From Terriglobia bacterium (lineage in GTDB: Bacteria > Acidobacteriota > Terriglobia > Acidiferrales > UBA7541): a stretch of 60,515 nt of DNA. This document shows, one piece after another, positions 6,437 through 47,972 of this stretch. The notes under the pieces were generated by a model. The model had not been told where the DNA came from. It saw only the letters and a list, made by a program, of their open reading frames with translations, and ran no database searches. The stretch is from the NCBI GenBank assembly GCA_020072785.1, contig JAIQGG010000010.1, forward strand, positions 1-60,515, written 5' to 3'. Made by a program: the position numbers and the translations under genes. Positions within the stretch are counted from its first letter, which is position 1; every line of letters begins with the position of its first letter.

Positions 6437-6790
6437 ATGGCTATGAGCAAACAGGAAGCACAACGACACGTTTTCAGCGTCCGCAAGGGCGACCAGGTGA
6501 AGGTGATGAGCGGGCGCGACCGCGGGAAGACCGGGCGGGTGCTCTCCGTCCTTCCCAAGAAGAACGCCGTGGTGGTCGAGCACGCCAACCTGATCAAGCG
6601 GCACACGCGGCCCAATCCGGGGAAGAACATCAAGGGCGGCATCGTGGAGAAGGAAGCGCCGATCAACGTCTCCAACGTGATGCTTGTCTGCCCCTCGTGC
6701 GGGAAGCACACCCGGGTGGGACACACCGCGATGCCCGATGGCACTCGGACGCGCTCGTGCCGGCGCTGCGCGACGACACTGGACAAGTAG
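6437..6790 (+). CDS. rplX: 50S ribosomal protein L24
   Basis: 117 residues with the KOW motif ([22 protein letters not shown]) and a C-terminal pair of CxxC knuckles ([12 protein letters not shown] and SCRRCATTL) that probably bind zinc. L24 is an assembly initiator on 23S rRNA. It begins 3 nt after rplN. Confidence 0.97.
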
Positions 6791-6809
6791 GAGCGAGGCG
6801 AAGAAATCC

Positions 6810-7373
6810 ATGACCAGCCGAATGCAGGAACGTTACCGGAAGGAAGCGGTGCCCGCGCTGATGAAGCGCTTCGGGTGGAAGAACCCCATGGCCGTGCCGA
6901 AATTGCAGAAGATCACGCTGAACATCGGGCTGGGCGAAGCCAGCCAGAACGTGAAACTGCTGGACACGGCCGCGGTGGAGCTGGGGCAGATCAGCGGGCA
7001 GCGGGCCATGCAGACGCGGGCCAAGAAGTCCATTGCCAACTTCAAGATCCGCAAGGGCATGCCCATCGGCTGCGCCGTGACCCTGCGCGGCGAGCGCATG
7101 TACGAATTTTTGGACCGCTTGTGCAACGTGGTGCTGCCGCGCGTGCGCGATTTCAAGGGCTTGCCCTCCAACGCCTTTGACGGCCGGGGAAACTACACCC
7201 TGGGGCTGAAGGACCAGCTCGTCTTTCCGGAGATCGATTACACCCGCGTGGACAAGATCAAGGGCATGAACATCACCCTGACCACCACGGCGAAGAACGA
7301 CGAAGAAGGCCGCGAGCTGCTGAAGCTGCTGGGTGTGCCGCTGCGCACGGCCAGCGTAGCGAAGGAAGGATAG
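6810..7373 (+). CDS. rplE: 50S ribosomal protein L5
   Basis: 187 residues from ATG 6810 ([18 protein letters not shown]). Family blocks seen: [48 protein letters not shown] and [14 protein letters not shown]5 binds 5S rRNA in the central protuberance. A longer in-frame reading exists upstream but would overlap rplX; 6810 is the family start. Confidence 0.97.
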
Positions 7374-12321: not shown

Positions 12322-13095
12322 ATGGCCATTCATCTGCGCAGCGCGGAAGAGTTGGAAAAGATGCACCGCGCCGGGTTGCTGGTGTGGGACGTGCTGACGG
12401 CGCTGCGCAAGATCGTGGCGCCGGGGCTGACCACCATGGACCTCGAGAAGTTCGCCGAGGAGCGCATCGCCGGCAAGCCGGGGCACGCGGCGTTCAAGGG
12501 TTACCGCGGTTATCCCTGCGTGCTGTGCACGTCGGTGAACAGCGAGATCGTTCACGGGATTCCCTCGGCGAAGCGCAAGTTGCGCGAGGGAGACATCATC
12601 TCGATCGATTTCGGGATGGAAGTGGACGGGTACTACGGGGATTCGGCGGTGACCGTGGCGGTCGGGAAAATCCGGCCGGAACTGCAGAAGCTGCTGGATG
12701 TGACCCGGGACGCCTTGGACCTGGCCATCGACAAGATGCGGCCGGGTAACCGCCTGGGCGACGTGGGGCACGCCGTGCAGAGCCTGGTGGAGCAGAACGG
12801 GTTTTCGGTGGTGCGCGAGTTTGTGGGCCACGGCATTGGCACGAAGATGCACGACGAGCCCAACCTGCCGAACTACGGCGAGCCGGGACGCGGCGCGCGG
12901 TTGCAGGAAGGCATGGTCATCGCGGTGGAGCCGATGGTGAACGCGGGCAAGCCGGATGTGCGCATGCGGGATGAGTGGACGGCGGAAACGGCGGACGGCA
13001 GCGCTTCCGCGCATTTTGAGCACACCGTCGCGGTGACGGCCAGCGGGCCGTGGATCTTGACCAGGCCGCGGGATGTAACCGGCCCGGCATGGTAG
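12322..13095 (+). CDS. map: Methionine aminopeptidase, type I
   Basis: 257 residues. It removes the initiator Met from new proteins. The five metal ligands are visible: two Asp (SIDFG and YGDSAV), His in GHGIGTKMHDEP, Glu in VEPMVNAG and Glu in HFEHTVAV. No N-terminal zinc-finger extension. 4 nt after adk; co-transcribed with the translation genes. Confidence 0.97.
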   Translation: MAIHLRSAEELEKMHRAGLLVWDVLTALRKIVAPGLTTMDLEKFAEERIAGKPGHAAFKGYRGYPCVLCTSVNSEIVHGIPSAKRKLREGDIISIDFGMEVDGYYGDSAVTVAVGKIRPELQKLLDVTRDALDLAIDKMRPGNRLGDVGHAVQSLVEQNGFSVVREFVGHGIGTKMHDEPNLPNYGEPGRGARLQEGMVIAVEPMVNAGKPDVRMRDEWTAETADGSASAHFEHTVAVTASGPWILTRPRDVTGPAW

Positions 13096-44367: not shown

Positions 44368-44472
44368 CGCCGCGCGAGTCTGCCCCGGCCGCCGAAAAAG
44401 TCCGGAGAGAGATTCCCCAGGGGCTGAAAAGTTTGCGGCGTAACAAACAGCAGGAGCCCGCCTAAACGGTCG

Positions 44473-45084
44473 TCAGATGAACACGGAGGCGTTTCCTTGC
44501 GCGTCGAAGTACATCGAAGGCAGCGCGAAGATTAGAAACGCCGTGAGCCACCACGGAATCATGCAGGCCAACGTACGACGACCGCCAGCACGCCAGCCTG
44601 AAACCAGTGCGGCTATGAAGCAAACCGATAGGCAAGTCAAACCCGTCCTGAATGGACAGGTGAGAACCCAGAATCCAGCCTCCGCCCCATCCGGCGTCAG
44701 GAAATATCCGTACGTGAGACCCGAACGTGGAACGAGCATTGTGAAAGCCTGCCTCTGCCAAAACCAGATTAAGAGAATGGCTACGAGAGCAGCCAGGAAA
44801 GGAAGAAGCGTTTTTGTGCGACGGAATACGACCTGATTGAGCCAGGTAGCGGAGACGAACAGCGCCACGCACCATCCCACCATGACGAAGGGCAATGTGT
44901 CCATCCCATATCGCTCACCAATGACCATCGTGACCCGAGTGGCGCAGAGCCCAACAACAAAGGGGAGGATAGTCGAAAGTGCGACTTGCATCGTTGCTGG
45001 TTTTTCTGGAACAGCCATCATATGCGGAAGGTCCTGGGATTGAGTTTTCGACCAACAGCGAGTTAAGACACCTAAGCCTAGCAT
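44473..45084 (-). CDS. Multi-pass membrane protein, unknown, in accessory island
   Basis: 203 residues if the ATG at 45084 is used; adjacent ATGs at 45021/45018 would remove 21-22 residues and neither has a good ribosome-binding site. Four to five hydrophobic segments (for example FVMVGWCVALFVSATWL and LLPFLAALVAILLIWFW). No family recognised. Its DNA is clearly less GC-rich than cmk or the DUF885 gene. Bounded on its right by palindromic element E1. Confidence 0.7.
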   Translation of the reverse strand: MLGLGVLTRCWSKTQSQDLPHMMAVPEKPATMQVALSTILPFVVGLCATRVTMVIGERYGMDTLPFVMVGWCVALFVSATWLNQVVFRRTKTLLPFLAALVAILLIWFWQRQAFTMLVPRSGLTYGYFLTPDGAEAGFWVLTCPFRTGLTCLSVCFIAALVSGWRAGGRRTLACMIPWWLTAFLIFALPSMYFDAQGNASVFI

Positions 45085-45104
45085 CCGGAGATAACTTTCC
45101 CAAC

Positions 45105-45172
45105 GCCCAATTAACGCTGCTAACCGGACATCTGGGGTACTGGAACGGCAGATGTCCGGTAATCCGACTACT
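45105..45172. repeat. Boundary palindrome E1 (cassette-like repeat)
   Basis: Perfect 12-bp inverted repeat, 45123-45134 with 45149-45160 (ACCGGACATCTG and its complement), 14-base loop. Flanks AATTAACGC on the left and CCGACTAC on the right match E2-E4. A second CGGACATCTG lies at 45231, at the end of the next gene. Confidence 0.8.
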
Positions 45173-45223
45173 CAGGAGTTATCCATTCGGTGTGCTATAA
45201 ACAGACGACTTCAGTCACCTACC

Positions 45224-46066
45224 TCATTTTCGGACATCTGTTGGAACAACATCTTCTTTGTGGTCGATTATCAAGTACAGGACATTGTTCTCGAATCGTC
45301 CGGCCATCCTCTGATCATCACCACTGAAGTAGGTTACGCGTGCGGTTACGTTAACTTCGCCAAACGCTTTTTGAATCCTCTCGACCATGCGCTTCGCAGC
45401 CGGTGTGCCAGGTGCAAGAGTGCCGATCTCAATACCTTGATCGCGAGTCATCCTTGACCTATTCGGGCCGAAGGTCTGCCACTTGGCGGATTTGAACGCG
45501 ACGGTGAAGTCGTCCGCATAGTCGCCACTCTCGCTATCCAACATTTGAGAGTAAATTGAAATAGGATTTGGTTCATCTCCCAAGATCCTCGCGAGCTTGG
45601 CTTGTTGCTCCGTCGTCAGATGACGCGGTTTCATTTTGTTTTCCAGACGTGCCCGGGCTAACCTTTCACTTTCAGCTTTCTGATTTGCTTGTGCGGCACT
45701 ATTTCCAGCGGATGCTATCTGAGCCTCGAATCCTTTCGCAAGGGCTTCACCTTGTGCCGCTCGATCATTTGCTTTAGCCGCATGTTGATTCGCAACCGCT
45801 GCCTGCTGGGTCAGCGCTGCTATTTCACCGTTAGCTATAGTCTCAAGGTGCCTCGATAACGCGAAAATTCCGCCATCGGCTAGTAGTTCGCCAGCGACAC
45901 CGATAATCACAAACATTTCGAAGACTTTAACCCACCGCTTGAGGTTTTCGCGATACTCGCCGACAAGACCGATAACGAGAAGCACACCGAACAGCAGTAG
46001 AAGTATTTCGGACACACCTAGCCAAGTTGATGTCGTGGATTTCGATAGCGAGGTTAGAACACCCAC
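45224..46066 (-). CDS. Membrane-anchored coiled-coil protein, unknown
   Basis: 280 residues from GTG 46066, which directly follows an in-frame stop. Two membrane helices (about 18-36 and 49-66), then a long Ala/Gln-rich coiled coil (about 85-145), then a globular C-terminal domain of about 120 residues (EPNPISIYSQMLDSESGDY...IIDHKEDVVPTDVRK). The family is not named here; similar architectures occur in genomic islands. Sits alone between E1 and E2. Confidence 0.75.
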   Translation of the reverse strand: MGVLTSLSKSTTSTWLGVSEILLLLFGVLLVIGLVGEYRENLKRWVKVFEMFVIIGVAGELLADGGIFALSRHLETIANGEIAALTQQAAVANQHAAKANDRAAQGEALAKGFEAQIASAGNSAAQANQKAESERLARARLENKMKPRHLTTEQQAKLARILGDEPNPISIYSQMLDSESGDYADDFTVAFKSAKWQTFGPNRSRMTRDQGIEIGTLAPGTPAAKRMVERIQKAFGEVNVTARVTYFSGDDQRMAGRFENNVLYLIIDHKEDVVPTDVRK

Positions 46067-46448
46067 CTATTTCATCTGGCCGTACGCGAGGTACAACTCT
46101 TGCGCCCGCTTGACGGCCTTCGTTCAACTTAACAGATTACTCGTGAAGCCTTTCGCCAGCAACCTTATGGCAGGCGTCGTATCGGCATTCTACAACTTGC
46201 ACCTGCAGCTTGGTGAGCCATGACTCCTGATTAACGCGCTAACCGGACAACTGGTTTTCACATGTCCGGTAAGCCAACTACACATCCAATTGGTGCGGGG
46301 CTTCGTCTATCCCCCTATAGACTTCACTGAGGGCACTCTCTATCCCGTAGTATGAAACGCCCGGAGAGAAACGAAATCAAGATTCCAACGCGGTAGATAT
46401 ACTAGCCGGTGATAGCATGTAGCTCCGGGGGGAAGAAGGTCCGATCCT
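46067..46448. other. Spacer holding boundary element E2
   Basis: About 380 bases between divergent genes. Contains E2 at 46221-46283; otherwise no convincing gene. Confidence 0.6.
46221..46283. repeat. Boundary palindrome E2 (cassette-like repeat)
   Basis: ACCGGACA (46242-46249) pairs with TGTCCGGT (46263-46270), and the stem continues outward GCT/AGC after one mismatch. Left flank CTCCTGATTAACGC and right flank AAGCCAACTAC are shared with E4 and E3. The similarity runs on to about 46310. Confidence 0.85.
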
Positions 46449-46814
46449 GTGTCGGAGAATAAGCTCAACCGAAGGTTGCAAGCCCTACAGCAGCGAGTAG
46501 ACCTCGTTCAGGCTCTCATGAGCTTCTTGAAGAAGCATCCGGCCATCGTTCCATACTGCACGTTGAAGCCGATGAGCACGGGGACAGGTCTGTACTTCGA
46601 GGAGAAGGGCTTCATCCGGCCAGTCTGGAACAACGGACCCACTCTGCGACTTGAGAGGTATATCGAGGATTGGGAAAACGACGGCGACCGGAGAATTGTG
46701 TCCGACAACATCTCTGCAATATCCCCGGATGACCTGGCACATCTTCTCAAAGAGGAGTTAAAGGTGGACCTTAGCAAGAAACCGGGTTGGGAAGAGGGCA
46801 ATGACGAGGACTAA
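46449..46814 (+). CDS. Small acidic hypothetical protein
   Basis: 121 residues from GTG 46449 (aagaaggt upstream). Predicted as mixed helix/strand with no membrane segment: an N-terminal amphipathic helix (LQALQQRVDLVQALMSFLKKH), a central region with RLERYIEDWENDGDRR, and an acidic end. I do not recognise it. It is the only plus-strand gene between E2 and E3. Confidence 0.65.
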   Translation: MSENKLNRRLQALQQRVDLVQALMSFLKKHPAIVPYCTLKPMSTGTGLYFEEKGFIRPVWNNGPTLRLERYIEDWENDGDRRIVSDNISAISPDDLAHLLKEELKVDLSKKPGWEEGNDED

Positions 46815-46840
46815 GATGGCAGGATTACCGTGTAAGTCCC

Positions 46841-46893
46841 CATTGACATGCTTATCGGATAAGTGGTTTTTACTTGTCCGATAAGCCAACTAC
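46841..46893. repeat. Boundary palindrome E3 (cassette-like repeat)
   Basis: 15-bp stem, 46850-46864 with 46872-46886, one G-U, 7-base loop. Compared with E2, the stem carries paired changes (ACCGGA to ATCGGA on the left with TCCGGT to TCCGAT on the right), so pairing is kept while sequence changes. Right flank GCCAACTAC is identical to E2. Confidence 0.85.
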
Positions 46894-46997
46894 GCGTCCA
46901 CTGAGAGGGGAGCTTCTTGCGACCAACCTCATCTATTTGACTGATCGGAGATTTCCAGCCTCTGCCCGTTGACTAGATGCAAATCAGCAAAACACGG

Positions 46998-47741
46998 TCA
47001 ATGCTTAACGATGAGGACTGTTACTCCCGGCGCGCTCTCCAGATCGTGTTTGAATTCCGCCTCGTCCCGTATCACTCCAATGTCGTACACAACGTAGAGT
47101 TGTCGGTCGTAACGATTGCTGTACATGCGGATGTCCGCGTTAATCTCATCCACGATGGCCTTCAGCTTCTCAGAAGTTTTGATGAGTTTGACCTCAAGGC
47201 AAAGTTTAAAGTCCGGAAAAACAAAATCTGGAATAGATTCCTTGCCAGAAGTCTTCACGCGGCCCGTTTCTCGGTCGTAGGACAGGCCCTTGGCCATGCC
47301 TCTACCAACAAGAAGCGTCTCTATGCTGTTTTGAATATCCACTTCCCTTTCGGGCGTGCCATACACAGCTTTGCGCAGATTGTCCCGTATAAAGGCTGTT
47401 AGCCTATGCGTTTCGTCTTCGGCATAACCGATCTCACCTTCTAGCGTCGACTTGAGTAGGAGAACGCTGGAATGCGCTTGGTCGAAGTAGCTTTTTTGCT
47501 GAATACCAATTGTGTCCCCATGGCCGGGTATCCTGCTCAGGTCGAAGCCGTAGATTTGGGGTCCTGCTGGTAGGAGAGGTACTGCTTCATTGGCCAAGTC
47601 ATTATACTTAGCAATGAAGGTCCTATAGCTACTGTACTTCCAAACGTCGTCAGGACGTGCCGAGCTAATGCTGTAACGCATCGCCTCAATGAGTGCGTTA
47701 ACCTTGCTTAGCAATCGCCGTAACTGTTCTTTTCGCTCCAT
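46998..47741 (-). CDS. Putative PD-(D/E)xK nuclease-fold protein
   Basis: 247 residues from ATG 47741. N-terminal helical half (about 1-115). The C-terminal half has IPDFVFPDFKLCLEVKLIK (about 165-183), i.e. a PD...D...ExK arrangement typical of restriction-endonuclease-like folds, followed by the helix LKAIVDEINADIRMYSNRY and a strand RQLYVVYDIG. That pattern is common to orphan nuclease-like proteins in defence islands. Activity is inference. Lies alone between E3 and E4. Confidence 0.7.
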   Translation of the reverse strand: MERKEQLRRLLSKVNALIEAMRYSISSARPDDVWKYSSYRTFIAKYNDLANEAVPLLPAGPQIYGFDLSRIPGHGDTIGIQQKSYFDQAHSSVLLLKSTLEGEIGYAEDETHRLTAFIRDNLRKAVYGTPEREVDIQNSIETLLVGRGMAKGLSYDRETGRVKTSGKESIPDFVFPDFKLCLEVKLIKTSEKLKAIVDEINADIRMYSNRYDRQLYVVYDIGVIRDEAEFKHDLESAPGVTVLIVKH

Positions 47742-47870
47742 TGCGTGTGCATCATATCAAGGCCATGAAGGCCCTTCCATTCAAGCGGAAGTCCTTGTTA
47801 CCAGGGAATACACCAGAACATGTCACGAGTTGAGCTTCAATCCATTACCCGGCTCAAATTCGATGCAAGC

Positions 47871-47930
47871 TAACTCCTGATAAACGCAGCATTAACCGGA
47901 CAAATGGAATTTTCAAAGCCGCGTCCGGGG
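47871..47930. repeat. Boundary palindrome E4, degenerate copy
   Basis: Left flank CTCCTGATAAACGC then TTAACCGGACA match E2 closely. The right arm is reduced: CCGGAC (47896-47901) pairs with GTCCGG (47923-47928), 6 bp. The conserved GCCAACTAC flank is missing, so this is probably a decayed end copy. Confidence 0.65.
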
Positions 47931-47972
47931 TGGCATAAACAGGGGGATGTATTCACTTACCCCGAAATTAAA

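Follow-up and report, generated by a model that had tools for sequence, protein, structure and literature searches.

The locus considered here raises the question whether single genes lying between similar palindromic repeats form an array of mobile cassettes and, if this is the case, whether the repeats belong to an integron. The window, i.e. the whole stretch of 60,515 nucleotides of a Terriglobia contig that was analysed, had originally been predicted to contain four such repeats (E1 to E4), either as a divergent type of attC or as another kind of element that mobilises small genes. Based on the results described in the following, we regard it as a mobile gene-cassette array that is integron-like in its behaviour and is moved by a site-specific recombinase acting at core sites within the repeats, with a probability of about 0.52.

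Of the four copies predicted to lie in the same orientation, three were recovered as complete elements by R1, a covariance model built from the element sequences of four genomes: E1 (45102 to 45177, 68.2 bits), E2 (46222 to 46287, 75.2 bits) and E3 (46834 to 46899, 58.1 bits), all on the minus strand. Since E1 to E3 were part of the training set, these scores are circular, which does not apply to matches outside the genus. In the core scan, E1 showed a left core at 45152-45179 with a score of 41.4 and, beyond the loop, a right core at about 45103-45130 with a score of 4.5, the weakness of which is due to a one-base insertion (GCAGCG). The left core (46262-46289) and the right core (46223-46250) of E2 scored 22.4 and 44.2, and both cores of E3 (left 46874-46901, right 46835-46862) are partly degenerate, with scores of 18.7 and 18.1. 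The fourth copy, E4 (47872 to 47944, minus strand), turned out to be half an element, in which the L'/R' half alone is recognisable (R1 18.7 bits, E about 0.01), but it is supported by an ortholog in congener G007 (contig C28), where the homology to the window starts at 47876 and continues towards rho (BLASTN). E4 forms the proximal end of the array, adjoining rho, and the half kept is the one nearest to the array. Searches for tRNAs and Rfam families gave nothing that overlaps or explains the elements.

The correct orientation of the array is that of the minus strand. A plus-strand reading was dropped, since only the reverse complement shows a GTT core like that of attC and places the elements in a 3' position. 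In this functional orientation, genes 1, 2 and 4 follow the direction of the array and gene 3 is opposite to it, which agrees with the one opposite gene noted before. Starting from rho, gene 4 (46998 to 47741, minus strand, 247 aa) encodes a DpnII/MboI-type nuclease domain (Pfam PF18742, E 7e-10; PADLOC Aga_Helical-REase, E 1e-8) and is followed by E3. Gene 3 (46449 to 46814, plus strand), encoding an acidic protein of 121 aa without a match in Pfam or PADLOC, is antisense to the array and followed by E2, and gene 2 (45224 to 46066, minus strand), encoding a membrane/coiled-coil protein of 280 aa for which Pfam gave one sub-threshold match and nothing better, is followed by E1. The prediction of one main gene between neighbouring copies was confirmed for E1 to E3. 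Beyond E1, an open reading frame for a membrane protein of 203 aa (gene 1, 44473 to 45084, minus strand) has a homologue in another context in G012 (74% at the DNA level), and no terminal element lies beyond it in the window. At this distal end (44463-44480 of the window) a terminal element is also missing in G007, the distal junction of which keeps a truncated left arm (CTCCTGGTCA).

When the 11 contigs (3.73 Mb) of the genome to which the window belongs were searched with the 19-base right-hand motif, allowing up to 3 mismatches, E1 to E3 and three weak places were found, compared to one place for the reversed control. E1 to E3 are real and beyond chance. With BLASTN of the window region, several congeners showed matches to the element alone (E 1e-10 to 1e-4), often near contig ends, and E2 alone was matched in G033, G022, G008 and G007. 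R1, as a structure-aware model, matched 30 of the 36 genomes of the genus and revealed multi-element arrays in the congeners G022, G033 and G018. Strong arrays of up to 73.5 bits were also found in a second genus of the family, g26 (G118 and G202), which was outside the training set, and copies of 55-74 bits occurred in genera absent from it. In a phylum-wide draw, 5 of 396 genomes, the window's own among them, showed a match at E<=0.001, those outside the family being very few. Altogether, the element family comprises more than 100 members in one family of Acidobacteriota (Terriglobia), and G202 carries at least 21 of them; dispersed lone elements also occur. The genomes are draft assemblies, mostly derived from metagenomes, and exact pattern matches among named records were soil Acidobacteria/Terriglobia MAGs. 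Among viral contigs, one match was obtained, a host array beside a prophage: L242 (IMGVR_UViG_3300037364_000022), classed as viral, comprises a prophage-like region with a terminase-like gene and a large serine recombinase next to a cassette array of the host, the elements of which lie at 12550 and 13168.

In the reverse complement, the consensus of the element consists of a left half, ACTCCTGATTA-GTCGGA-TTACCGGACAA, and a right half, TTGTCCGGTTA-GCGCGT-TAATCAGGAGT, separated by a variable loop of mostly 17-21 nt (range 6-41). With a length of about 66-76 nt, the element is longer than first described. Each half resembles a core of ~28 bp, in which two similar arms of ~11 bp surround a conserved spacer of ~6 bp, and the two halves are mutually inverted; judged by conservation, the cores would thus have an 11-6-11 geometry. 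Alignment, folding and the core scan revealed an imperfect palindrome of four boxes with a variable loop in the order R''-spacer-L''-loop-L'-spacer-R'. The best-conserved positions include the spacers GTCG and GCGTT, mostly with 1.5-1.9 bits, R' reads GTTWAYC, and a GCGTTA motif is found at the right end of the element. Although E3 and E2 indeed differ by a paired change, as first described, 124 elements pair about as predicted for independence, and the description as covarying palindromes fails beyond E3. In the inner arms, Watson-Crick pairing was close to the expectation for independent columns, with slightly more pairing than expected at one C-G/T-A column. The outer arms (R'' and R') showed zero covariation, which is also the expectation if the cassette that follows supplies R'. 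Since pairing lies at the level of independence, the element is conserved by sequence: this holds true for arms and spacers, and compensatory change is almost absent. The assumed selection on structure rather than on sequence is thus reversed.

The behaviour of the units was determined by comparison of related loci. Across 72 cassettes, spacing and length showed a median of 1.0 kb, with about one gene per unit in arrays of one direction; the main open reading frame is oriented with the array in 30 cassettes and against it in 22, and its orientation is unclear in 20. A comparison of the window with G007 showed a common flank with a DUF885 gene up to position 44462 and a common rho flank from E4 (47876), while everything in between, i.e. 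the variable block from 44463 to 47875, differs completely in content. G007 thus keeps the flanks and E4 and holds entirely different genes. In addition, single cassettes with identities of 92-99% were found in unrelated neighbourhoods, with breaks that lie near GCGC|GTTAATC at the right core or at GT|CGGA in the left core. Contig C138 of G033 and contig C120 of G165 share, at 93% identity, a unit of ~640 bp that carries a gene for an AHSA1-domain protein of 146 aa. The sequences on either side of the unit are unrelated, and both breaks fall in right cores, at about GCGC|GTTAATC. G165 is assigned to another family and its 16-kb contig is possibly mis-binned, but the junctions hold either way. 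Furthermore, two cassettes from separate contigs of G118 (99% and 93% identity) occur on the same contig of G311 (5.4 kb). The first starts at CGCG|TTAATCAGG and the second ends at CTCCTGATTGGT|CGGA, which corresponds to the left-core spacer (GATTGGT|CGGA).

Among the partial cases, the break lies at the right core for L127/L140 and at the left arm for L123/L131, for L121 compared to contig C278 of G311 (L273, 3' end) and for L121 compared to contig C30 of G311 (L274). Three junctions were located outside the spacer, at the outer end of the left arm. Right-core breaks would fit the G|TT of R' to within one or two bases, but are blurred by conserved flanking sequence; some breakpoints are blurred due to the mutual similarity of the elements, and left-core breaks were seen as well. 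Altogether, cassette behaviour was shown by content replacement specific to one locus, by the sharing of single cassettes and by breakpoints in the cores. Together with the element families across genomes, the replacement at one locus and the cassettes shared between unrelated contexts support the view that the array mobilises single genes, as originally predicted.

Two other kinds of mobile elements were observed at these sites. An IS110/IS1111-type element interrupts cassette elements at the same base, after GGACA at the end of L'', at three sites in two genera (L181:7290-8559, L026:116 and L241:6975, the last copy apparently without most of the transposase). The transposase at L181:7346-8185 comprises the Pfam domains Transposase_20 and DEDD_Tnp_IS110, and the subterminal inverted repeats of the element are AACAATGTCGGC/GCCGACATTGTT. 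Moreover, a unit of ~205 bp with imperfect terminal inverted repeats is located in the spacers of the cores, where 2 bp (CG or GC) appear to be duplicated. Many copies occur across the family, among others at L121:7303-7520, L028:2688-2892 and 6759-6963, L099:4588-4792, L100:1000-1204, L281:2231-2435 and L139:8030-8234; an autonomous relative was not found in the sequences examined.

These observations can be brought together in the following explanation. A cassette would consist of one gene and one element, in which a short variable loop separates two inverted core-like half-sites. Strand exchange inside the cores would be carried out by a site-specific recombinase, probably from the tyrosine (Xer/IntI) superfamily, and recombination between the equivalent cores of two elements of the same direction would excise or insert a cassette. 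Junctions would usually form in the right core (GCGC|GTTAATC); the left core (GT|CGGA) would serve as well. The identity and class of the enzyme, the strand chemistry and the separate action of the two cores of one element are parts of the explanation which we infer. A serine recombinase was considered as well, because the ~205-bp unit inserts at the central dinucleotide, a position that is compatible with a serine-type crossover. That a site-specific recombinase acts on the cores is the most likely reading, its main rival being a highly divergent attC/IntI lineage. To a wider version we give slightly less than an even chance, namely a cassette system independent of integrons, with two inverted core sites per joint and an uncharacterised recombinase (tyrosine or serine), which would be confined to one family of soil Acidobacteriota and would shuffle hundreds of single genes, oriented either way.

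The search for the recombinase gave no gene that consistently adjoins the arrays. For IntI, the integron integrase with its characteristic extra domain (TIGR02249), none of the 36 genomes of the genus was above the cut-off (best 115 of 265 bits), and among 299 genomes of the class four were above it, all outside the host family f1. The genuine integron integrases with about 460 bits on contig C8 of G057 (L141) and contig C34 of G066 (L142) belong to another family of the same class. In the element-rich G202, a search for tyrosine recombinases found XerC, XerD, one fragment and nothing else. A tyrosine recombinase of 394 aa common to G000, G022 and G118 (35 of 89 genomes of the family) was rejected, because it is absent from the element-bearing G007, G033 and G202. 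Trios of RIT-like tyrosine recombinases were restricted to one genome, G018, and unlinked to the arrays; in its contigs C234 and C21 (L104, L105 and L117), tyrosine recombinase genes lie side by side in several groups of three, which resemble RIT elements. A phage-type integrase of 396 aa (L107:4278-5468), located 0.7 kb upstream of the array on contig C105 of G033 and pointing away from it, had no relative in the loci examined from G118, G202 and G000. Within the loci examined, serine recombinases were found only beside one element (L139) and in a prophage. In total, three candidate recombinase families were rejected due to a lack of linkage or of phylogenetic fit.

The locus works like an integron, whereas membership in the integrons is not supported by the data and a divergent attC is not established. 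CALINs are clusters of attC sites which by definition lack an integrase locally. As in chromosomal integrons and CALINs, each one-gene unit carries one hairpin-forming element with four boxes and a variable loop, the boundary of the unit appears to lie at or next to GTT, gain, loss and reshuffling are precise, and assemblies are fragmented at the arrays. It is therefore conceivable, though we consider it rather unlikely, that the locus represents a degenerate or very divergent integron, in which the elements would be an Acidobacteriota lineage of attC and the arrays CALINs with an IntI that was lost or acts in trans. Besides the attC-like order of parts, the GCGTTA at the right end and the one gene per unit, this would be in line with the genuine IntI in other families of the class, with the integrons reported from Acidobacteriota (PMC8618304), with the published attC model for Acidobacteria (PMC8352920) and with the ability of CALINs to be mobilised in trans (PMC9668308). 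The fixed hairpin position entered by the IS110/IS1111-type element is likewise shared with the IS1111-attC group (PMC11187229), although here it is the GGACA end of L'' that is hit, in an element other than attC. On the other hand, the clean GTTRRRY core that had not been found before is indeed lacking, as none of 133 elements contained a RYYYAAC/GTTRRRY pair with a simple finder that recovers known class 1 attCs, and R1 gave no match when run on genuine attC sites. Further differences from integrons and CALINs are the absence of an IntI above the cut-off in the host family genomes tested, the long arms and spacers conserved by sequence without covariation, the near-random gene orientation (30:22) and the use of the left core as a second junction.

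The housekeeping recombinases XerC and XerD could act on two inverted dif-like cores per element, which appears improbable to us. They are the sole intact tyrosine recombinases seen in G202, an arm-spacer-arm layout would be suitable for them, and, as in Xer sites, the arms start with TTA at the spacer; otherwise, the core arms are unlike the bacterial dif consensus, and XerC/D occur equally in those family members that lack elements. A similar action has been proposed for the pdif modules, in which XerC/XerD sites flank genes on Acinetobacter plasmids. Here as there, two inverted arm-spacer-arm sites bound movable genes of either orientation, but in the present case both sites lie within one element of ~70 nt, the arms are not dif-like, and the arrays are chromosomal and belong to Acidobacteriota. 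Least probable of all, and by our estimate very improbable, are intergenic palindromes of the REP or MITE type in an array reshuffled by ordinary homologous recombination or by chance. REP/BIME palindromes, which have RAYT transposases, are likewise lineage-restricted, imperfect and located between genes, and the lone dispersed elements as well as the other MITE-like repeats in the same islands would fit this origin. It does not account for arrays of one direction with about one gene per unit and a median spacing of 1 kb, for a spacer that is the best-conserved part of the element, or for core-precise exchange of genes with breakpoints between elements too unlike for homologous recombination.

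Integrons are the textbook collectors of single genes. If the reading as a cassette system separate from integrons is true, a second system that forms such arrays from other sites and apparently by another enzyme would mean that cassette capture evolved in more than one form. Abundant soil bacteria would then hold a pool of cassettes that attC-based searches may miss, and the search for a new recombinase with defined substrates would become concrete.

A further conserved sequence of ~50-57 nt, CCTTCCATGAGAAGGCCGGTGAGTGTCAAGTCGGTTTTTCTTTTT, was found in 20 of the 36 genomes of the genus, for example at the start of L273, at L274:1405, at L278:3382 and in L288, L291 and L305, among others. It is often preceded by bases that also precede the left core and is often followed by a conserved leader, and in at least one case the next gene is NHL-repeat-like.
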